DNA from: Desulfobacterales bacterium
Lineage (GTDB): Bacteria > Desulfobacterota > Desulfobacteria > Desulfobacterales > JAFDCJ01
DNA length: 13,906 nucleotides
Reading direction: 5' to 3'
NCBI GenBank assembly: GCA_020345785.1
Contig: CP070771.1
Span: 3,593,845 to 3,607,750 of the forward strand
Positions 1,909 to 13,267 of the stretch are shown here, piece after piece. The notes under the pieces were generated by a model. It saw only the letters and a list, made by a program, of their open reading frames with translations, was not told the origin of the DNA and did not search any database. The translations under genes were made by a program, and so were the position numbers. How positions within the stretch are numbered: position 1 is the stretch's first letter; each line of letters begins with the position of its first letter.

Positions 1909-1973
1909 GATTGGAATGCTGAAATTACAACTAACAAAAATTGATGCGCTATGTCAAGAATCATGGAAGCGGT

Positions 1974-3479
1974 TTGAAAAACCAAACGATCATAAAGCTC
2001 GAAAACATCACCCTCAGAGTCCGAGATGCGTTTTTATTGCCCAACACAAGCTGGCAAATCGATAAAGGGCAGCACTGGGCGATCTTGGGACCCAACGGCG
2101 CCGGAAAGACAACCCTGGTCAAGGCGCTTAGCGGTGAAGTTCCGGTGGTCACGGGTGTGATGCGTACTTTTCATAATCCGGCGAATCCACTGCGGGCCGA
2201 ATATGTATCCTTTGAACAGCATCAGCGCCTGATTGCACGTGAGGACCAACGCGATGAATTTCGTTCTTTCAGCGGTGATTTAAACCGCATCACTACGGTC
2301 CGTGAAATTCTGCTTGAAAGCAATGGACAGCCGGCCGACCTTACCGAAGATATTGAGGATGTGGTTGCCAGACTCAAATTACAGCACCTGCTCGGCAGGG
2401 GAATCCGGGCGTTGTCCACCGGAGAAATAAGAAAAATTCAGATTGCGCGGGCGCTGCGGAAATTGCCGGAAATTTTGATTCTGGATGAGCCTTTTGACGG
2501 CCTGGATGAATCTTCGCGTCGGGATCTGGTTCAAATCATCGATGGCCTGATGGATGACACCCGGACCGTGATTCTTGTAACCCATCGCCAAAGGGAGATT
2601 CTGCCCAAAATCTCGCATGTCCTGGCCGTTAAAAACGGGGAGGTGCTTTTTCAGGGGAGACGTTCGGATGTGCTGACCCCTTCGCAAATGGAGCGTCTGT
2701 ATGCATTCGATTTTGCCGCTTCTATTGCCATTCCTGCCGGAGAAGAAAGATCGCTGCCGGCTGCCGGAAACTCGTCCGATAGTTTGGTCTGCATGAAAAA
2801 TGTGACAGTTCAATATGGCGACACGACGGCCCTGGATAATATCAGCTGGACCATGAGATACGGTGAGAATTGGGCGATATTAGGCCCTAATGGCTCCGGC
2901 AAGACAACCCTGCTGAACCTGATCACGGCAGACAACCCCCAGGCGTATGCCAACCAGATTTATCTGTTCGGCAAACGTCGCGGTTCCGGTGAGAGCATCT
3001 GGGACATCAAACGACGCATTGGTACGGTCTCCTCTGAATTTCAGATCCGCTACCGCAAACCCATATCGGCGTTTGAAGTTGTCCTATCCGGTTTTTTCGA
3101 CAGCGTCGGTCTTTATCGTCATGCATCGGCTGAACAAAAACAAAAGGCCGAACAATGGATGGCGGTTTTGGGCATTGCCCATAAGTCCAATAAAATCTTC
3201 AATCAACTTTCATATGGTGAGCAGCGCATGATTCTGCTGGCGCGATCGATGGTTAAAGTACCATTGATACTGATTCTGGATGAACCCTACCAGGGTCTTG
3301 ATCGCACAAACCGGCAAAGAATGCTGGATGCAATCGACGTTATCGGTCACCGCAGCGAGACCCATATCATTTATGTCACGCATTATTCAGATGAAATCCC
3401 CACCTGCATAACCCATATGTTGCAGTTCAACAAGACACCCACTGGAAGATTCAAGGCCAGCCGGCGGCGGTTAAAATGA
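1974..3479 (+). CDS. modF: Tandem-ATPase ABC protein of the ModF (PhrA) type
   Basis: Two fused ABC ATPase domains with no membrane segment. Numbering here counts from the TTG at 1941. Domain 1 has Walker A GPNGAGKTT (50-58), signature LSTGE (159-163), Walker B ILILDEP and switch His215. Domain 2 has Walker A GPNGSGKTT (315-323), signature LSYGE, Walker B LILILDEP and His481. The order and length (about 500 residues) match E. coli ModF, an ABC protein beside the molybdate transport genes whose role is poorly defined. No mod genes lie here, so the symbol reflects family resemblance rather than a proven molybdate role. The start is uncertain. TTG 1974 (MKNQTIIKLENITLR) has GGAAG 4 bases upstream and begins the protein as ABC ATPases usually do. 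ATG 1944 and TTG 1941 are in frame but lack a ribosome-binding site. Confidence 0.85.
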   Translation: MKNQTIIKLENITLRVRDAFLLPNTSWQIDKGQHWAILGPNGAGKTTLVKALSGEVPVVTGVMRTFHNPANPLRAEYVSFEQHQRLIAREDQRDEFRSFSGDLNRITTVREILLESNGQPADLTEDIEDVVARLKLQHLLGRGIRALSTGEIRKIQIARALRKLPEILILDEPFDGLDESSRRDLVQIIDGLMDDTRTVILVTHRQREILPKISHVLAVKNGEVLFQGRRSDVLTPSQMERLYAFDFAASIAIPAGEERSLPAAGNSSDSLVCMKNVTVQYGDTTALDNISWTMRYGENWAILGPNGSGKTTLLNLITADNPQAYANQIYLFGKRRGSGESIWDIKRRIGTVSSEFQIRYRKPISAFEVVLSGFFDSVGLYRHASAEQKQKAEQWMAVLGIAHKSNKIFNQLSYGEQRMILLARSMVKVPLILILDEPYQGLDRTNRQRMLDAIDVIGHRSETHIIYVTHYSDEIPTCITHMLQFNKTPTGRFKASRRRLK

Positions 3480-3750: not shown

Positions 3751-6681
3751 ATGCGGCGAGTTGTTACGATCATCTTTTTGGGGGCCGTTCTCTGCACTTC
3801 GTTTGTTGGCGCTTTAGCAGCTGAACTGCCTGAGGATGCCATCCTGCGCAGCTGGGTGCAGGCGATGAAAGAAGCCCCCCGGGGACCGTTCACACGCCTG
3901 CGCTGGTTTTGCAATGACGGCACCATCTTGCCTCCCAAAGAATACGCCTGCCGGGAGCACGGCGGTGGGGTGCAGCATGGTGAATGGACAGACCAGGTCA
4001 AATTGATGCGTGATAACGGCTATTACATCGCCAATGTTTATGCGGATATCAACCCGGAAATGTTTCAGGCGGACCCCGCACACCCGGGTATCGTCAAGCA
4101 AATGATCCTGGAACGGTTTCTGATCGATGCCGACGACGGCTGGATTTTCCGCAGGGCGCGCTATTACCGCGGCGCCCTGCAAACAGAAGATGAGACCCGC
4201 GGAGGGCGAGGCCTTTTAATTGCGCTGGCCAAAGATCCGGAGTGGAATGAGCGGCGATTTGTCGTGCTGCGCGAAGCAGTGCGATTTGTGCCCCATGGCC
4301 GCAAGGAGGCACCCATCACGGAAATGCGGCAGCTTTCCCTGTCCCTTGCCGAAAAAGACCCAAATTTTGAAACGCTGCGGATCAAAATTCATGTCCACCC
4401 GGAACTGAGCGATGCCGTCGATGTCCGTACGTATGCCAAGAGCCGCGGTGTTGCCGGTCTTGCACAGGATTACGAGCGCCTGGCCAAGGTCATCGAGGAA
4501 ATTTACCAGCCCCAGGATGTTGAGCCCGCCGTTGTTTCTCTGTCCAAGCAGATCAAAAATACCAAATTAAAACGGCAGCTCAACAAGGCTGCCGGGCAGC
4601 TGCGCGACCCAAAAGATCCGGCGGCACGCTTTGCAGTTGCCGGAAAATTGCTGGCCACGCTGCGCGACAGCCTGCCCACGGCCGGACAGGCGGGCCGGCA
4701 ACTTGCTCTGCTGGATACCGGGCTGGTGCTGGAGGGCGAATTGTATCGCAGCGCCAATGAACTGCTGGAAACACTTTCCGGGGCGGCCCGCCGCCAGCGG
4801 TTAATGTGGCTTGCCGCCGCTTGCGATGGCCTATACGGCAGCGGTTTAATTTCTGCGCGTCAACACCGGTCTTTGCAGGAAACTTTTCAAGCTCTGCTCG
4901 AAACCAATCCCCAATTAATCGACTACCAGTACGGCCTGGAATACGCCGCCCGTGTTCCTGAATGGGCCGATCGGCTGCTGCGGTTTCATTTTTCCGAAAC
5001 ATTGGCCCGCTTGGAGGTGATCGAGCCGCTCAGTCTGCGCTACATTCACGACCGACTGCGCGGCAGTCTGCTGCTTTTTTATTCAGACACGCTGGAAAGC
5101 CTGATGGCCGACGCCGGCCGGCAGCTGGATATTCAAAATGACGTGTTCGAACAAAAAACAGCCACCGGCCTACGGGGTCTGAATGCCGGACTGGCGCGCG
5201 GCATCCTCAGGTTACCCAAAACCGGCGCGGATGGACACAGCTTGGACCGCAACGGTATTTATGTCCTGCCGGCGACCACCGAAGATTTGCCCCCGGTGGC
5301 CGGCATCATTACCGCCGGCAGGGGCAATATCCTTTCCCATGTGCAACTTTTAGCACGCAATCTGGGCATCCCCAACGTGACGCTGGACAAAAAACTGCTG
5401 CCGCAAATCACCGCCAGAGAAGGCCAAAAGGTGGTGCTGGCCGTCAGCGCCATGGGTATTGTCCAACTGGTTGAAGACGGCCCTGAGTGGGATCCGATTT
5501 TTGCCGAAGAATCCAAGGTGCAGGATGTTGTCATCCGGCCGGATCTCAATAAGCTGGATCTTTACAATCTCAGTTTTATCCCGCTGCAACAGATGCGGAC
5601 GACCGATTCCGGTCGGATTGCCGGACCTAAAGCCGCCAACCTGGGTGAACTCAAGCACCACTTTCCCGAGGCCGTTACCGATGGGCTGGTCATACCGTTC
5701 GGCCATTTCAGGGCCCTGCTGGACCAGCAGCTCGAACCGGACGAACCGAGTGTATTCAGCTGGATGCAGCAACAGTATGCGCTGATCCAGGACCTTAAAG
5801 ACGACCCTGTGAAACAGGAACAGGTCGTCCGCCTGTTTTTGCAGCGCATGCGGGACTGGGTCGAAAATGCCGATCCCGGCGAGGACTTTCGCCGACGTCT
5901 GCTGGAGGCGATGGAGGAGACATTCGGTCCGGACGGAAGTTACGGCGTGTTTGTGCGCAGCGACACCAATGTTGAAGATCTGCCGGGATTCACCGGGGCC
6001 GGTCTCAATCTCACAGTGGCTAATGTCGTGGGGACTGAAAATGTGCTGGAAGCCATCCGCCGGGTCTGGGCCTCGCCGTTCACCGAGCGGGCTTACAGCT
6101 GGCGTCAGGCCTACATGCAGAATCCGGAACATGTTTACGCATCGGTGTTGCTGCTTAAAAGTATCCCGGCTGACAAATCCGGTGTCATGGTGACGGCCGA
6201 CGTGGACACCGGCCAAACCGGTTGGTTGACCATTGCAGTTAATGAAGGTGTCGGCGGCGCTGTTTCCGGCCAGACATCCGAAGAGCTGCGAATTAACCTG
6301 GCCAACGGGAACGTGCGGCTGATGGCGCATGCCACCGAGCCGTATAAGCGGGTGATCTTAAAAGAGGGCGGCATGGCCAAGGTTGCAGCCAGCGGCACCG
6401 AGGCGGTGTTAAGTCCAAAAGATATCCAGCAATTGATGGCATTTGCCAGGTCCGTTGCCGAGCGCTTTCCCATGCTGCAAAGCGCCGATGGCAGCATCGT
6501 CCCCGCTGACATCGAATTTGGTTTTTTCCAGGACAAGCTGGTACTCTTTCAGATTCGTCCCTTTCTGGAAAGCATGCGCGCTCGACAAAACCTTTTTTTG
6601 AACCGTCTGGATCAGCGATTGAAAGAAAAATATGCCGTGGTGATTGATTTAGACGAGATTCCGGCGGAGGAAACCCAATGA
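3751..6681 (+). CDS. Exported dikinase-like protein: phosphohistidine domain followed by PPDK-type ATP-grasp domain
   Basis: The protein has 976 residues. Residues 1-24 look like a Sec signal peptide (MRR, hydrophobic core, ALAA before Glu25). Residues 25-490 are mostly helical and unrecognised, with Cys54 and Cys67 early. Residues about 500-575 are a PEP-utiliser mobile (swivelling) domain, with catalytic His530 in GRGNILSHVQLLARNLGIPN. Residues about 605-945 are a PPDK_N/PEP-synthase ATP-grasp domain: Lys627 in GPKAANLGEL, Arg736 in VRSDTNVEDLPGFTGAGLNL, and Glu922 and Gln934 in ADIEFG...FQIRP. All look intact. The order (His domain, then ATP-grasp) is the reverse of PEP synthase and matches plant alpha-glucan water dikinases; GHFRALL and VWASPFTERAY also resemble them. 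No PEP/pyruvate-binding barrel is present. The inferred chemistry is ATP to enzyme-His phosphate to an unknown acceptor. The oddity is the signal peptide, since ATP is scarce outside the cytoplasm. AAGAGGA precedes the start. It overlaps the next gene by ATGA. Confidence 0.85.
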   Translation: MRRVVTIIFLGAVLCTSFVGALAAELPEDAILRSWVQAMKEAPRGPFTRLRWFCNDGTILPPKEYACREHGGGVQHGEWTDQVKLMRDNGYYIANVYADINPEMFQADPAHPGIVKQMILERFLIDADDGWIFRRARYYRGALQTEDETRGGRGLLIALAKDPEWNERRFVVLREAVRFVPHGRKEAPITEMRQLSLSLAEKDPNFETLRIKIHVHPELSDAVDVRTYAKSRGVAGLAQDYERLAKVIEEIYQPQDVEPAVVSLSKQIKNTKLKRQLNKAAGQLRDPKDPAARFAVAGKLLATLRDSLPTAGQAGRQLALLDTGLVLEGELYRSANELLETLSGAARRQRLMWLAAACDGLYGSGLISARQHRSLQETFQALLETNPQLIDYQYGLEYAARVPEWADRLLRFHFSETLARLEVIEPLSLRYIHDRLRGSLLLFYSDTLESLMADAGRQLDIQNDVFEQKTATGLRGLNAGLARGILRLPKTGADGHSLDRNGIYVLPATTEDLPPVAGIITAGRGNILSHVQLLARNLGIPNVTLDKKLLPQITAREGQKVVLAVSAMGIVQLVEDGPEWDPIFAEESKVQDVVIRPDLNKLDLYNLSFIPLQQMRTTDSGRIAGPKAANLGELKHHFPEAVTDGLVIPFGHFRALLDQQLEPDEPSVFSWMQQQYALIQDLKDDPVKQEQVVRLFLQRMRDWVENADPGEDFRRRLLEAMEETFGPDGSYGVFVRSDTNVEDLPGFTGAGLNLTVANVVGTENVLEAIRRVWASPFTERAYSWRQAYMQNPEHVYASVLLLKSIPADKSGVMVTADVDTGQTGWLTIAVNEGVGGAVSGQTSEELRINLANGNVRLMAHATEPYKRVILKEGGMAKVAASGTEAVLSPKDIQQLMAFARSVAERFPMLQSADGSIVPADIEFGFFQDKLVLFQIRPFLESMRARQNLFLNRLDQRLKEKYAVVIDLDEIPAEETQ

Positions 6682-7949
6682 AACGCGCTATAAAATCCGG
6701 CTTATTGATTTTAATACTCCTCGGGGCTCCCAACGTCTGGTCCTATCCACTGGATGGATATCCCGCCACCGGGGTTTTGCGGCTGGAAGGTTTCCGGCTG
6801 GCCCAGCAGGGAAAAGTGCAGGGCATCCGGGTTCCGTCCGGTGCAATGCTTGGTCTGGACCAGGTTGACCTGCGACTGAACGAGCAGTCCGACTTTCAGA
6901 TTCCCGCAATCGATTCTGAGTTTTTGGCAAAGATCGAAAACCTGCTGGGAGACGATGCCGATAATTACGGAGTTGCCGTATTGGATTTAACGGATGCAGG
7001 CTCGCCGCGCTATGTGGAACATCGCGGTGACTATCAGGCCAATCCCGGCAGTGTCGGCAAACTTGTCGTGGCGCTGGGGGTTTTTCAAGCGCTGGCCGAC
7101 CTATACCCGAACGATGTCGGCAAGCGCCAGGAAATATTGCGTGACACCCTTGTAACCGCCGATCAGTTTATCCAATCGGACCACCACAAGGTGCCGTTGT
7201 GGACCCTGGAGAGCAAAAAAATCGACTATCGTCCCATCCAGATCGGCGACCGGGCAAATCTGTGGACCTACCTTGACTGGATGCTGTCGGCCAGCTCGAA
7301 TGCGGCGGCCAGTATAGTCATAAAGGAGCTGATGCTTTTGGTGCAGTATGGCCGAGATTATCCGGTCAGTATCGAGGTTGCCGATACTTTTTTTAAGGAA
7401 ACCCCGCGTAAAGAGCTTGCGCAGCTGCTGTCCAAAAGCCTGCAGGAACCTTTGACCCGCAACGGACTGGATCTTGAGCATCTTCGTCAGGGATCCTTTT
7501 TTACCTGGAAGGGCAAGCAGTTGGTGCCAGGCACGACCAGCTATGCCAGCCCCCGAGAATTGATGCGGTTTCTGGTGAAAATGGAGCAGGGTCAGCTGGT
7601 CGACCCGTTTTCCAGTCGCGAAATCAAACGCCTGATCTACATGACCCAGGGCCGCATCCGTTATGCATCGGCACCGGTCCTTTTTCCGGCGGCCGTTTAT
7701 TTCAAATCAGGGTCTTTGTACAAGTGCAAAGCGGAGCCCAATTTCAAGTGCGGTAAATACATGGGCAACGTGGTGAACATGCTCAATTCGGTGGCGGTCG
7801 TTGAATACCCGGCCGACGATCGGAAATACTATTATATGGTGGTGGTAATGTCGAATGTGCTGCGGAAAAATTCGGCGGTGGCCCATCAGACGCTGGCTAC
7901 TCGAATTCACCGTTTGATCGAGGCCCATCATTCGGCAAAAAAAGACTAG
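6678..7949 (+). CDS. Exported serine hydrolase, class A beta-lactamase/transpeptidase fold
   Basis: The protein has 423 residues with a signal peptide (MKRAIKSGLLILILLGAPNVWS, cleavage near 22). All three active-site elements of the penicillin-recognising serine hydrolase fold are present: SVGK (Ser125 nucleophile, Lys128), SSN (206-208) and KSG (343-345). Residues 23-90 form an N-terminal extension absent from ordinary class A beta-lactamases. No clear omega-loop ExxxN motif is seen, so a true beta-lactamase activity is doubtful; a peptidoglycan or esterase/amidase role fits equally. Cys350 and Cys358, just after KSG, could form a disulfide. The ATG overlaps the stop of the dikinase-like gene (ATGA), implying translational coupling and a shared job. 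The gene ends in CTAG at the border of the MITE-like element. Substrate unknown. Confidence 0.85.
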   Translation: MKRAIKSGLLILILLGAPNVWSYPLDGYPATGVLRLEGFRLAQQGKVQGIRVPSGAMLGLDQVDLRLNEQSDFQIPAIDSEFLAKIENLLGDDADNYGVAVLDLTDAGSPRYVEHRGDYQANPGSVGKLVVALGVFQALADLYPNDVGKRQEILRDTLVTADQFIQSDHHKVPLWTLESKKIDYRPIQIGDRANLWTYLDWMLSASSNAAASIVIKELMLLVQYGRDYPVSIEVADTFFKETPRKELAQLLSKSLQEPLTRNGLDLEHLRQGSFFTWKGKQLVPGTTSYASPRELMRFLVKMEQGQLVDPFSSREIKRLIYMTQGRIRYASAPVLFPAAVYFKSGSLYKCKAEPNFKCGKYMGNVVNMLNSVAVVEYPADDRKYYYMVVVMSNVLRKNSAVAHQTLATRIHRLIEAHHSAKKD

Positions 7950-8089: not shown

Positions 8090-8983
8090 CTAGTTCGCCG
8101 TAGGCCCTTTGGTCTGAAAAATAAGATTGTCGATGGCGATGATCAGATCGGCGAGCCATTTGCCGCCTCGCGGGCTTTTGGCCAACGCCACAGCGATATA
8201 GCGACGGCCGTCGTGTTCGATGATGGCGCTGTCTGAATGATACTCTTTCCAGGTTCCGGATTTACGATAGATGCGGGAATCGGGATGAATCTGTCTCAAG
8301 CCTTTGACAAACTTGTGTTCGATGGCGGGGTTGCCGAGGATGGATTTCATTTGCCGGCTGAGCTCAGGGCTCACCAGCCGGCCGGTTTGCAGCATGTAAT
8401 AAAAACGGGCGACCTGAAGGGCAGTGGCGCCATGGGAAAGGTTATGAAGGGGGTCCCGTTTCCAGGCACCGGACTTGCTGTATTCTTTGCCGACCCACAG
8501 TCCGCCGTTTTTTTTCGGATCATAGAGCCGATATCGGGGAGATTGCAGCAAATCGGCCAGATAAGCCTTGCCCACCTGATTGAGGATTTCCGTGGCAGCC
8601 TGATTCGAAGAGTTGCGAATCATCAGCGCCAGCTTTTCCCGGGTGGTTTCATCCAGGGTCATATCGCCGCGGGCGATGCGTTCGAAAGCCCCCAGCAGGA
8701 TGGCGATTTTCGGCAAACTGGCGGCATACATCATCTCATTGGGATTTACGTAAGCCATGCGGGGCGATGATGGGTCGGTGATATCCACCAGCACAATGCT
8801 CAGGGACTTGCGGTCGGCTGCCTTGTCAAGATTGAGAGAAACCAGACACATTTGCAGCCCTTTCTGTAATTTTGGATCGCAGGTCTCCGACAAATCCGCC
8901 GGCAACTGGTGGGTGTGAACCGGTGTGGCAATGATCAGGAAGATGATGATTAAATATAGCTTATATCCGCACCTCTTAATCAT
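8090..8983 (-). CDS. Exported serine hydrolase, class A beta-lactamase-like
   Basis: This is a second protein of the same fold as the one at 6678-7949, convergent with it. With the start at ATG 8983 it has 297 residues and a typical signal peptide (MIKRCGYKLYLIIIFLIIATPVHT). An in-frame TTG at 9019 would add 12 residues ahead of the signal sequence and overlap the divergent gene, so 8983 is preferred; neither has a strong ribosome-binding site. Active-site motifs, numbered from the TTG, are SLPK (101-104), SSN (137-139) and KSG (253-255). The segments MMYAASLPKIAILLGAFE and SDSAIIEHDGRRYIAVAL are typical of class A beta-lactamase-like hydrolases. It lacks the N-terminal extension of its neighbour. 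Antibiotic hydrolysis cannot be claimed; a cell-wall or ester/amide hydrolase role is possible. Its TAG stop lies in the CTAG bordering the MITE-like element. Confidence 0.85.
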   Translation of the reverse strand: MIKRCGYKLYLIIIFLIIATPVHTHQLPADLSETCDPKLQKGLQMCLVSLNLDKAADRKSLSIVLVDITDPSSPRMAYVNPNEMMYAASLPKIAILLGAFERIARGDMTLDETTREKLALMIRNSSNQAATEILNQVGKAYLADLLQSPRYRLYDPKKNGGLWVGKEYSKSGAWKRDPLHNLSHGATALQVARFYYMLQTGRLVSPELSRQMKSILGNPAIEHKFVKGLRQIHPDSRIYRKSGTWKEYHSDSAIIEHDGRRYIAVALAKSPRGGKWLADLIIAIDNLIFQTKGPTAN

Positions 8984-9013
8984 GTTGGTAATTATTACTG
9001 TTTTGGTAGGAAA

Positions 9014-10306
9014 ATGCAAGTGAAAAATTCAAATAGGGCGCCGGCGGAAGGCTGCAACGGTCGATACCTTGCACTGCGAAAACCCGCGGTGCGGGCGTTT
9101 TTTCTGTTTATCAATTTTTTTCTCATCATTACAGCGCTTTATCAGCTGAAACCGGCCAGCCGCTCGCTTTTTATCGAAGCGCTGGGCGCCGAGCGTCTAC
9201 CCTATGTTTGGATTGTCACCGCGCTGACCATGGCCGTTTTTATCACCAGTTATCATCGGCTGGTGGCGCGTTTTAGCCGCCTGCATGTGGTGCTGGGAAC
9301 CACCTTGGTCGTCGGCGGCCTGCTGGTCGTCTTTCGCATCCTATTTAATTATCCCGGCCAGATCATTCCCATCAGCTTTTATGTGTTTGTTGACATTCAG
9401 AGTGTCGTGCTGGTTGAACAGTTCTGGAGCCTGACCAATGCGATATACACAACCCGGGAGGGAAAATCCTGGTACGGCTTTGTCGGAACAGGGGGACTGG
9501 TGGGCGGTGTCACCGGCGGCGGTATCTCGGCAATTTTACTTAAGTACACCCCGCTGCAAACGCCGGATCTGCTTTTGACGGCGGCGGCGACCGTCGGTCT
9601 TATTTTTGTTCTTGCATGGCTGATGGAGCGTATGGGCCTGTACTGTGAAATCGATCAGGTGGACGCTGCGACGCCGCAAAGTACGGGCAGCTGGCGTGTT
9701 TTAGGACGCAGCCGCTATTTGCTTCTGATTGCCGCGGTCTTATTGCTGGCCCAACTGGTATCTCCCATTATTGAGTACCAATTTTTGAATGCGGTAGAGA
9801 TATCCTATCCCGCCCGGGAAGCCCGGACGGAATTTCTGTCGCTGTTTTTCAGTGTGTTGGGTTTAATTTCCATTGCCATCAACCTGGTGATCACGCCCTT
9901 CATCCATCGTGTTTTCGGCACCATCGTCGGTTTGCTGATCCAGCCGTTGATGATCAGCCTGTTTTCCTGGTGTTTTTTGTTTCAATCCAGCCTCTTTTTC
10001 GGCGCCGCCAGCAAGATCAGCGACCGCGGATTATCCTATTCCATTAATCGGGCCTCCAAGGAGCTGCTCTACGTGCCGATTGATCCGGTGACCATCTATC
10101 AGGCCAAAGCCTGGATTGACATGTTCGGCTACCGCCTGTTCAAAGTTTCCGGCTCCCTTTTGATCCTGCTTTTCACCCAATGGCTGCCGGTAACCATCGG
10201 GATCGCCCGGCTAAGCTGGATTAACGTTACGATTTGCGGTGTCTGGATTGCTTTGATCATGGTGCTGCGCCATGAATACAATCTGATATGTGAAAAATCC
10301 CGCTAA
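9014..10306 (+). CDS. TLC/Npt-type nucleotide transporter-like membrane protein
   Basis: A 430-residue integral inner-membrane protein with about 12 hydrophobic segments. It resembles the NTP/NDP exchange (TLC, Npt1/Npt2) family. Matching features are LKPASRSLFIEALGAERLPYV near residues 45-65, EQFWSL...REGKSWYGFVGTGGLVGGVTGG (135-169) and ASKELLYVPIDPVTIYQAKA (347-366), the last being the family's RKELLF-x-P-x-D-x-x-x-Y-x-AKA segment. Characterised members exchange ATP for ADP in Rickettsia, Chlamydia and plastids. Relatives in free-living bacteria are uncharacterised, so the substrate is open. The N-terminal 25 residues are hydrophilic. The start is ATG 9014 (AGGA only 3-4 bases upstream) or GTG 9020, which is better spaced from the same AGGA. 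The SSS symporter follows 27 bp downstream, so an operon is likely. An MFS-like carrier is the alternative reading. Confidence 0.75.
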   Translation: MQVKNSNRAPAEGCNGRYLALRKPAVRAFFLFINFFLIITALYQLKPASRSLFIEALGAERLPYVWIVTALTMAVFITSYHRLVARFSRLHVVLGTTLVVGGLLVVFRILFNYPGQIIPISFYVFVDIQSVVLVEQFWSLTNAIYTTREGKSWYGFVGTGGLVGGVTGGGISAILLKYTPLQTPDLLLTAAATVGLIFVLAWLMERMGLYCEIDQVDAATPQSTGSWRVLGRSRYLLLIAAVLLLAQLVSPIIEYQFLNAVEISYPAREARTEFLSLFFSVLGLISIAINLVITPFIHRVFGTIVGLLIQPLMISLFSWCFLFQSSLFFGAASKISDRGLSYSINRASKELLYVPIDPVTIYQAKAWIDMFGYRLFKVSGSLLILLFTQWLPVTIGIARLSWINVTICGVWIALIMVLRHEYNLICEKSR

Positions 10307-10333: not shown

Positions 10334-11959
10334 ATGTCCTTAAATCCACTCGACTGGATCATCATTATCATCTACCTGGCCGGCATGGTCGCATTAAGCG
10401 CTTTTCTGGCGCGGGGACAGAAAAATGCGCGGGATTACTATCTGGGCGGCAATCAGACCGCCCCGCTGCCCATCGCACTTTCCACCGTGGCCACCCAGTG
10501 CTCAACCAACAGCCTGCTGGGCGCACCGGCTTTTGTGGCCTTTGCGGCGGGCGGGGGCATCCTCTGGCTGCAATATGAGCTGGCCGTGCCCTTTGCCATG
10601 ATGATCCTGATGGCCCTGATTTTTCCGGTTTTCCGCAGGCTGAATCTCATTTCTCTTTACGAGTATCTCGAGAAACGCTACGACCGCCAAACCCGCACCG
10701 CCGTCAGTATTCTCTTCCAGTTTCTGCGGGCGTTTTCCACCGGCGTCACCGTCTACGGGATTGCGCTCGTTTTGATGGTGTGCCTGGATCTGCCATTCTG
10801 GGCCGCCGTGCTGCTGCTGGGCGGCATCACGGTTGTCTACGATGTTTTGGGCGGCATGCGGGCGGTGATCTGGTCGGATGTTATTCAGGTGGGGGTGCTT
10901 TTCGGGGCAATCGTCGCGGCGGTTGCCGTGGCCATCCATTTGGTGGGCGGGATGGACCATGTTTGGGCCCGCTTTGATCCGCAGCGCCTGCGGGCGGTTG
11001 ATTTTGCCCATCATGGTCTGGGTGACGGCCGCACGTTTGCCTTCTGGCCGATGCTGGTGGGGGGGCTTTTCCTCTACCTTTCCTATTACGGTTGCGATCA
11101 AACCCAGGCCCAACGGGAACTTTCCACGCGCAGCGTGGATGACACCCGGCGGGCTCTTTTTTTAGACGGGATGCTGCGTTTTCCACTGGTGGCGTCTTAT
11201 TGTTTCCTGGGGGTGTGTCTGGGGGCCTATGCCGCGACTGATCCGGGGTTTGTCGCCGAGCTGCCGCCTGCCGACAACGGCAGTGCCAATTACAACCTGG
11301 CGGTGCCGATATTTGTTTTGAAACACTTCCCCCACGGATTGATCGGCTTGGTGATGGTAGGATTGCTGGCCGCCGCCATGTCCTCGCTGGACTCCACCTT
11401 GAATGCCCTCAGCGCCCTCAGCATGCAGGATATTGTCAAAAATTTTGTAAGAAAACAGCTCAGCTCCCGGATCGAGATGCTGCTGTCAAAATTGCTCACC
11501 GTGTTTTGGGGTGTGGTCTGTCTGGCGTTCTCGTTTTATGTGGGGGATATTTCCCAGACCGTCATCGAGTCCGTTAATAAAATCGGATCGCTGAGCAACG
11601 GGCCGCTGCTGGCCGTGTTCGTGATGGGAATGCTCAGCCGACGGGTCAACGGCCCGGGTGCCATATGCGGTTTGATCGCAGGATTTCTCGGCAATCTCGG
11701 GCTGTGGAGGTTTGCCCCGGACATCTCCTGGCTGTGGTGGAACGTTATCGGATTTATCGCGGCATACGCCGTCGGATATCTTGCCAGCCGCGTTTTCCCG
11801 GCACCTGATTCGGATAAGCTTTCGGGCACGTTGATGGCATCCCGCCCGGCTGAACGGGTGCAACTGCGCCGTTCCAAGTGGCGGCCTTACTATGTGGTGC
11901 TGGCGGCCTATGGCAGCGGCATTCTGCTTTTGTTGATTACCGTAACAATGATCCTTTAG
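10334..11959 (+). CDS. Sodium:solute symporter (SSS/SLC5 family)
   Basis: A 541-residue membrane protein with about 13 transmembrane segments. Typical SSS features are DYYLGGNQTAPLPIALSTVATQCSTNSLLG near the N-terminus (first transmembrane helices and substrate/Na site region), LYEYLEKRYD, YDVLGGMRAVIWSDVIQ in the middle, and AAAMSSLDSTLNALSAL at about residues 347-362, the Na2-site helix with its paired Ser/Thr. Length is normal. It should import an unidentified solute with Na+ across the inner membrane; the family covers sugars, amino acids, sialic acid, monocarboxylates and pantothenate, and sequence alone does not choose among them. The ATG at 10334 lacks a good ribosome-binding site, so translation may be coupled to the upstream Npt-like gene 27 bp away. 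Its stop overlaps the convergent small ORF by 4 bp. Confidence 0.9.
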   Translation: MSLNPLDWIIIIIYLAGMVALSAFLARGQKNARDYYLGGNQTAPLPIALSTVATQCSTNSLLGAPAFVAFAAGGGILWLQYELAVPFAMMILMALIFPVFRRLNLISLYEYLEKRYDRQTRTAVSILFQFLRAFSTGVTVYGIALVLMVCLDLPFWAAVLLLGGITVVYDVLGGMRAVIWSDVIQVGVLFGAIVAAVAVAIHLVGGMDHVWARFDPQRLRAVDFAHHGLGDGRTFAFWPMLVGGLFLYLSYYGCDQTQAQRELSTRSVDDTRRALFLDGMLRFPLVASYCFLGVCLGAYAATDPGFVAELPPADNGSANYNLAVPIFVLKHFPHGLIGLVMVGLLAAAMSSLDSTLNALSALSMQDIVKNFVRKQLSSRIEMLLSKLLTVFWGVVCLAFSFYVGDISQTVIESVNKIGSLSNGPLLAVFVMGMLSRRVNGPGAICGLIAGFLGNLGLWRFAPDISWLWWNVIGFIAAYAVGYLASRVFPAPDSDKLSGTLMASRPAERVQLRRSKWRPYYVVLAAYGSGILLLLITVTMIL

Positions 11960-12334: not shown

Positions 12335-13267
12335 TCACCGCTGAAGCAATCCATCCATGACTTCGACGAACCGGAGGGGACTTACCGCAACGGCATTTAG
12401 TTTGACACCCCAGTGTAGATGCGGCCCGCTGACCCTGCCGGTGGCACCGGACAAACCTATCAACTGGCCTTTTTCAATCCGCCGGCCGGCCGCCGTCTCG
12501 ATTTTGCTCAGGTGGGCATAAATCGTGAAAATTTCCGTACCGTGGTCGATGATGACGGCATTGCCGGAATAAAACAAATTTTTCGCCAGCCTCACGACAC
12601 CCGAGTTGGTTGCATAAACGGGTGTTCCTTTTGGAGAGCGAAAATCCAGACCATTATGATAACTTTTCAACTGACCGTTGAATACCCGTCGGTTGCCGAA
12701 ACGGCTGGATATTTCGTTTTCAACCGGCAGTTGGAACGAACCGTCCCATAACCGTTCCTTGACTCCACTGGCATAGACATGACGGACTTCCTGGTGTTCG
12801 CGGCTGGCGCGCTGACGGTCTTCATTGTTGGGGTTTACCCGACGGGAATCCACTTTTAAAACATCTGTTTTGTACTTGCCGGCGACTACCTGAAAGGGAA
12901 TCAGCCTGCTCTTTTTACCGGTTGCATCAAAATAGTTCAGCGTTAGTTTTTGAGGGCCCGTTTTGGTGCGATACGGTATGCCGATCAGGGCGAAATAGAC
13001 CCCGTTTGTTCCGGCTGGATGCCGGTAAACCTGGTGGCTGTGGCCGTTAAAGTCGATGCGCATGTCGGTGTCGGACAGCTGCCGTGCGCCGGTGTCGATT
13101 TGCAGCAGGAGGATGCCGCCGTTGGCGACATCATTTGAAGACGCATGTACTGCGGGGTATTGACCGACTTGGTTTTGGGCGGTCACCTTCCACGGCAGTA
13201 GCAATGCGGTGGACAGAATAAAGGCGGTCGCTATAACGAACAGGTCAGTGTTAATCCTAAGTTTCAT
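12335..13267 (-). CDS. Exported M23 family metallopeptidase (LytM/peptidoglycan endopeptidase-like)
   Basis: A 310-residue protein. Residues 1-30 form a signal peptide ending in VTA. Residues about 35-135 form a beta-rich region seen in some periplasmic M23 proteins, followed by a charged linker (about 136-175). The peptidase domain spans about 178-308, with all zinc-site motifs: HxxxD (His204, Asp208 in SYHNGLDFRSPKGTPV), His252 in IYAHLS and HLH (283-285) in SGPHLHWGV. An active Zn endopeptidase that cuts cross-linked peptidoglycan in the periplasm is therefore expected, although M23 enzymes can also act on other glycine-rich or peptide substrates. The ATG at 13267 has no obvious Shine-Dalgarno. 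The 194-bp leader carries a structured element that may control expression. Confidence 0.92.
   Translation of the reverse strand: MKLRINTDLFVIATAFILSTALLLPWKVTAQNQVGQYPAVHASSNDVANGGILLLQIDTGARQLSDTDMRIDFNGHSHQVYRHPAGTNGVYFALIGIPYRTKTGPQKLTLNYFDATGKKSRLIPFQVVAGKYKTDVLKVDSRRVNPNNEDRQRASREHQEVRHVYASGVKERLWDGSFQLPVENEISSRFGNRRVFNGQLKSYHNGLDFRSPKGTPVYATNSGVVRLAKNLFYSGNAVIIDHGTEIFTIYAHLSKIETAAGRRIEKGQLIGLSGATGRVSGPHLHWGVKLNAVAVSPLRFVEVMDGLLQR

Follow-up and report, generated by a model that had tools for sequence, protein, structure and literature searches.

A predicted exported dikinase linked to a TLC-type nucleotide carrier and two beta-lactamase-fold proteins: a probable extracytoplasmic phosphotransfer system

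A stretch of 13,906 nucleotides from a Desulfobacterales bacterium (assembly GCA_020345785.1, contig CP070771.1, positions 3,593,845 to 3,607,750 of the forward strand), here called the window, encodes a predicted exported dikinase of 976 amino acids, counted from its ATG (3751..6681, + strand). The dikinase gene is accompanied by genes for two predicted exported proteins of the class A beta-lactamase/penicillin-binding protein (PBP) fold, BL1 and BL2, and for a carrier of the TLC family of ATP/ADP carriers, NTT1. Computation finds the four genes linked across many loci, export-type N-termini, intact catalytic residues, and known families for the parts. Together the four genes probably encode one extracytoplasmic phosphotransfer system with an ATP-supplying carrier.

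Such a system would work as follows. The carrier, in the inner membrane, would pass cytoplasmic ATP (or another nucleoside triphosphate, NTP) to the periplasm and take back a spent nucleotide. The dikinase, exported through the Sec pathway, would bind this ATP in its ATP-grasp domain and phosphorylate its own His530 on a swivelling domain. The phosphate would then pass to an acceptor, perhaps held by the N-terminal helical domain, and AMP would be released. The substrate that receives the phosphate would also be acted on by BL1 and BL2, as exported active-serine enzymes. Its likeliest identity would be a peptidoglycan- or peptide-linked molecule, which is a guess with a rather lower chance of being right than of being wrong. 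In its most specific form, a dedicated ATP/NTP exporter in several lineages would power a periplasmic dikinase that works with two PBP-fold enzymes, an envelope substrate would be phosphorylated, and ATP would be exchanged for AMP instead of ADP; the chances for and against this full version seem evenly balanced.

In the window, BL1 (6678..7949, +; 423 amino acids) overlaps the stop of the dikinase gene with its start by 4 bases. BL2 (8090..9019, -; 309 amino acids in the longest frame) comes next, followed by NTT1 (9014..10306, +; 430 amino acids). The carrier matches PF03219 with 76.1 bits (cut-off 21), and two ATP/ADP carriers of known structure in the PDB, 9j3n (E 2e-33) and 9j3j (E 5e-25), are found with the profile of its family. 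It shares the PF03219 family and these profile matches with the TLC/NTT carriers of Chlamydia and plastids.

The linkage of dikinase, BL1, BL2 and TLC carrier is well supported. The loci compared are the best 80 of 255 relatives of the dikinase from a scan of genome contigs; in 47 of them the sequence extends 5.5 kb or more beyond the dikinase on its downstream side, which offers room for the partners. All three partners lie somewhere in the locus in 34 of these 47. Counted singly, BL1 is present in 42, BL2 in 38 and a TLC carrier in 36 (37 by profile). Of 67 loci with room for it, 61 have BL1 on the dikinase strand and downstream of the dikinase; the distance exceeds 1 kb in 4 of these 61, and an overlap of exactly 4 bases with the dikinase is seen in 32. 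The next commonest neighbour cluster occurs in 13 of 81 sources, and its position is not fixed.

The module can also be divided. Loci L038, L068, L075 and L079 have the dikinase with BL1 and BL2 with the carrier as two parts about 8 kb apart, and the corresponding parts are about 20 kb apart in genome G002. Where the carrier is missing from the locus (10 of the 47), a PF03219 match can be found elsewhere in 9 of the genomes; the tenth is the genome of L046. Such a match is present in 18 of 20 dikinase genomes asked, compared with 0 of 14 control genomes.

The same association is seen when whole genomes are compared. The first sample consists of 321 genomes from the class of G018, the Guyparkeria genome that contains locus L064 (Guyparkeria hydrothermalis), and includes genomes that contributed rows to the profiles. 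At thresholds of E 1e-30 for the dikinase and E 1e-10 for a TLC match, the dikinase is present in 29 of the 321. BL1 occurs in 30, which are all 29 dikinase genomes plus G247, where it is a 133-bit piece on a contig shared with a TLC gene. BL2 occurs in 27, every one of them dikinase-positive; the dikinase genomes G055 and G198 are without it. TLC matches of any kind are found in 80 genomes, that is, in 28 of the 29 dikinase genomes (as a short piece in G055) versus 52 of the 292 others. There is a gap in the TLC scores: 23 genomes reach at least 488 bits, and the rest score 263 or less. With the limit of the NTT1 subfamily placed at 488 bits, a choice made after the scores were seen, all 23 NTT1 genomes are dikinase-positive and none is among the 292 others (Fisher p 6e-30). 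Dikinase and NTT1 share a contig in 18 of the 23, and in 17 of those they lie within 10 kb of each other.

The second sample consists of 147 genomes from the class of G001, the Desulfobacterales genome that contains L002, and was searched for the dikinase and the TLC carrier. The dikinase is present in 9 genomes, and NTT1 (at least 572 bits) in 6, all among these 9. Any TLC match occurs in 42 genomes: 9 of 9 with the dikinase versus 33 of 138 others. In the three dikinase genomes outside the NTT1 subfamily, the TLC matches score 211-248 bits and lie in frames of about 970 amino acids.

What persists in the module is a TLC-type carrier, not one carrier lineage. By identity to the carrier of the window, module carriers fall into NTT1 (47-75%; 32 rows with the window), NTT2 (21-27%; 13 rows) and NTT3 (20-22%; 2 rows); one further row, L019, is weak. 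On an IQ-TREE phylogeny of 47 dikinases, well-supported branches force no fewer than 3 changes of the labels NTT1 and NTT2, and each change may be a gain or a loss. In the distant branch of L081, whose dikinase is 32% identical to that of the window, BL2, a fusion of TLC and HEAT domains, the dikinase and BL1 follow one another on one strand; BL1 of this branch matches no Pfam family and was identified by eye, on the strength of its motifs and position. That different TLC clades fill the same slot is the strongest argument for a need of the module for nucleotide transport.

Further genes of note lie near some modules. Directly after the four-gene operon of L081 lies a gene (L081:12929-13780) that reads by eye as a PPK2-type polyphosphate kinase, possibly a link to nucleotide recharging. 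In L028, L029 and L061, the other strand carries a second TLC-like frame (51-72 bits), 40-80 bases upstream of the dikinase; in L061 this frame encodes an MFS-like protein of 1050 amino acids that ends in a cyclic-nucleotide-binding domain. In L037 (16972-19119), and also in G136, G165 and G288, NTT1 is directly followed by another TLC-related frame, of about 715-840 amino acids.

ATP as the cargo of the carrier and the outward direction of transport are inferred. Most characterised bacterial NTTs carry ATP (PMC4256464), and four charged residues have been studied in Arabidopsis NTT1, where they are important for transport: K155, E245, E385 and K527 (PMC3306366, PMC4256464). Their equivalents in the window carrier are W66, D127, E254 and K377, counted by hand on the alignment, where a single offset of 84 fits all four. 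All 32 NTT1 rows keep the ATP-site lysine and have an acid at both acidic positions (E254 is Asp in 4). Together with the change at the ADP site described below, this hints that ATP is exchanged for a partner other than ADP, perhaps AMP, which a dikinase would be expected to produce. The hint is a lead only, because NTT2 departs at the positions of K527 and E245.

Several observations weigh against the proposed system. The ADP-site lysine is replaced by Trp in 32 of 32 NTT1 rows, and NTT2 has Asp at the K527 position and Gly at the E245 position, each in 12 of 13 rows. With 56.9, the window carrier scores far below the TIGR00769 cut-off of 387.2. The Trp, the missed cut-off and the genetic tie to an exported ATP-using enzyme set this carrier apart from those of Chlamydia and plastids. 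At least one partner is missing from 13 of the 47 loci with room, and no PF03219 match is found in 2 of the 20 dikinase genomes asked, those of L019 and L046. In the 321-genome sample, the dikinase-positive genome G255 has no TLC match at E 1e-10 and G004 has one of 61.8 bits only, and TLC carriers also occur in the 52 dikinase-negative genomes mentioned above. Finally, the received view is that the periplasm holds no ATP (PMC7391070). The earlier note on this DNA had called an ATP-dependent dikinase outside the cytoplasm biochemically unusual.

These points leave some room for a different account of the carrier, in which the module is real and exported but ATP is not brought out by the carrier. 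The carrier would instead take in the phosphorylated product, or would carry a different nucleotide such as NAD, and nucleotide for the dikinase would come from lysed cells or the environment. Of the charged residues known to matter, the module carriers retain only some. Sequence does not allow the substrate of an NTT to be predicted (PMC4256464), and some NTTs carry NAD (PMC5381601). On the other side, more than one TLC clade occupies the same slot, and what these clades have in common is nucleotide-carrier ancestry; moreover, use of chance extracellular ATP would need no tie to a carrier. A carrier of this kind is unlikely, at perhaps a fifth of the total weight, and outward supply of ATP or another NTP by the carrier is still the preferred reading.

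The dikinase itself has three parts: a mostly helical N-terminal domain (residues ~26-462), a phosphohistidine domain (residues ~474-576) and an ATP-grasp nucleotide-binding domain (approximately residues 605-946; 5563..6588, +). The ATP-grasp domain is recognised by PPDK_N (PF01326) over residues 623-945 (E 5e-31, 108.6 bits, cut-off 27). The PEP-utilizers family (PF00391) scores 21.1 in the whole protein, below its cut-off of 23.1, and 24.3 when the region is scanned alone. His530 (codon 5338..5340), predicted to be the phosphohistidine, and the ATP-grasp residues Lys627, Arg736, Glu922, Gln934 and Arg936 are invariant in dikinase alignments of 32, 27 (A2) and 74 (A4) rows, each including the window. 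Lysine, arginine, glutamate, glutamine and arginine residues of this kind have catalytic roles in ATP-grasp domains of dikinases. Because the residues stay fixed down to about 44% identity, their conservation is more than chance. The chemistry proposed for His530 is taken by analogy from the phosphoenolpyruvate (PEP) synthase family. The earlier note had proposed this His domain and a complete PPDK-type ATP-grasp, with the same residues, and both proposals hold: each residue is at exactly the position given there.

The nearest known enzymes include PEP synthase, PPDK and rifampin phosphotransferase. These enzymes share the ATP-grasp with the dikinase of the window, which differs in its reversed domain order, its predicted export and the absence of a PEP/pyruvate barrel. 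Their acceptor domains are not common to the dikinase, and none of the NCBIfam cut-offs for the three enzymes is reached. The barrel is not among the three Pfam families reported for the dikinase at E 0.1 or below, as the earlier note had also read from the sequence.

A phosphohistidine domain followed by a C-terminal ATP-grasp is the order of glucan water dikinase (GWD). Plant alpha-glucan water dikinases (GWD/PWD) share with the window dikinase this order and the lack of a PEP/pyruvate barrel; the window enzyme differs in being bacterial and, by prediction, exported. The likeness goes no further than domain order, on which the earlier note had based its comparison. GWD1_pHisD (PF22973) scores 18.0 on the region and 14.3 on the whole protein, with a cut-off of 27. 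Alpha-glucan water dikinases carry starch-binding modules at the N-terminus, where residues 26-462 of the window dikinase give no Pfam match at E 1 or below and no usable PDB match.

The reversibility of PPDK-type chemistry suggests another use for such an enzyme, namely nucleotide salvage, in which the dikinase would run backwards and use AMP and a phosphodonor to make ATP outside the membrane, for import by the carrier. NTTs of intracellular pathogens do import energy and nucleotides (PMC5381601). The missing PEP/pyruvate domain leaves this scheme without a source of high-energy phosphate, and BL1 and BL2 would have no obvious role in it. Salvage is the faintest of the possibilities considered, and phosphotransfer from ATP to an acceptor is again preferred.

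Evidence for export comes from the N-terminus of the dikinase. Residues ~1-24 (3751..3822) look like a signal peptide, with basic residues, a hydrophobic core and small residues before ELPED, where cleavage would be expected. The earlier note had taken this start for a signal peptide, and its relatives agree with that prediction. Export-type N-termini were counted as a hydrophobic 12-mer (mean at least 1.8) directly preceding the mature part, in 81 dikinases including the window; 79 were testable and 2 had no anchor motif. The hydrophobic stretch is present in 77 of the 79, and in 75 of the 79 no further 19-mer is strongly hydrophobic. For comparison, 496 other open reading frames of at least 200 amino acids from these loci were scored by a closely related, though not identical, measure: a hydrophobic N-terminus is present in 173 of them, and in 99 of the 496 it occurs with no later hydrophobic stretch. 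Among testable rows, BL1 (63 of 70) and BL2 (53 of 53) have export-type N-termini by the same kind of measure. That the dikinase N-terminus reads as a Sec signal, and that the enzyme would be exported, is a well-supported prediction.

A hydrophobic core alone proves neither cleavage nor orientation. The N-terminus could also be an anchor that leaves the catalytic part in the cytoplasm, in which case no extracytoplasmic ATP would be needed. Basic residues before a hydrophobic core favour a protein body on the outside, and they precede the core of the dikinase. The near absence of a second hydrophobic stretch, and a BL1 gene that overlaps the dikinase and also encodes an export-type N-terminus, point the same way. 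So do Cys54 and Cys67 (3910..3951), which do not vary in A2 and hardly vary in A4; the cysteine pattern is present in 78 of 81 rows, and a disulfide between the two is possible. A cytoplasmic dikinase is very improbable on these grounds, and an exported one remains preferred.

BL1 and BL2 share PF13354 with class A beta-lactamases and TLL2115 (38.4 for BL1 and 70.5 for BL2, cut-off 22), as well as the motifs SxxK, SxN and KSG, which in BL2 read SLPK, SSN and KSG. The only PDB match of the BL2 profile is a weak one (E 1e-4) to 2j7v, TLL2115, which is presumably the D,D-peptidase PBP-A; BL1 has no PDB sequence match. The two proteins may differ from class A beta-lactamases in the ExxLN-type loop, which in its strict form is nearly absent by pattern: it is found in 0 of 43 readable BL1 rows and 1 of 52 readable BL2 rows, and a looser pattern in 8 and 26, with 28 of 71 BL1 rows and 4 of 56 BL2 rows unreadable. 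BL1 is in addition about 420 amino acids long and has two invariant cysteines.

The beta-lactamase fold of both partners can be read as a sign of detoxification. On this view the dikinase, like rifampin phosphotransferase, would phosphorylate a molecule of antibiotic type, and BL1 and BL2 would act on beta-lactam-like molecules. Rifampin phosphotransferase does provide the best structural matches of the ATP-grasp domain. Detoxification has only a slim chance of being the right account. A shared role of the dikinase, BL1 and BL2 on an envelope molecule would be the more plausible one.

The window also encodes other proteins. Right after the carrier comes an SSF sodium:solute symporter (10334-11959), which does not belong to the conserved module, because among the 80 loci it is found again only in L002. 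L002 also has the M23 peptidase gene seen at 12335-13267 (-), for which the best NCBIfam model is the peptidoglycan metallopeptidase Pgp3 (260.9, cut-off 300). Upstream of the dikinase lies a ModF-like tandem ABC ATPase (1941-3479; 441.3, cut-off 459), which directly precedes the dikinase in L005 and L012 as well. A beta-keto acid cleavage enzyme of the BKACE family (400-1326) scores 407.1 against the model of 3,5-dioxohexanoate:acetyl-CoA acetone transferase (cut-off 430).

The assembled system appears to be new, because its parts belong to known families but no counterpart was found for an exported dikinase with a nucleotide carrier. In searches of the open-access literature, judged by titles and the openings of abstracts, no description of the module or of such a pair was found. 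NTT carriers have been reported across free-living bacteria, with only a small fraction of their diversity studied (PMC5381601); the part of this source that was available does not mention the dikinase module. The periplasm is described as being without ATP (PMC7391070), and envelope processes are accordingly explained by the proton motive force or by cytoplasmic ATP. If the proposed system is real, this rule would fail in a considerable number of species that pair an exported ATP user with a nucleotide carrier (29 of the 321 genomes in the first sample and 9 of the 147 in the second). Such a system would mean ATP-fuelled biochemistry in the periplasm with its own supply line, and it would give some NTT carriers a role beyond intracellular pathogens and plastids.

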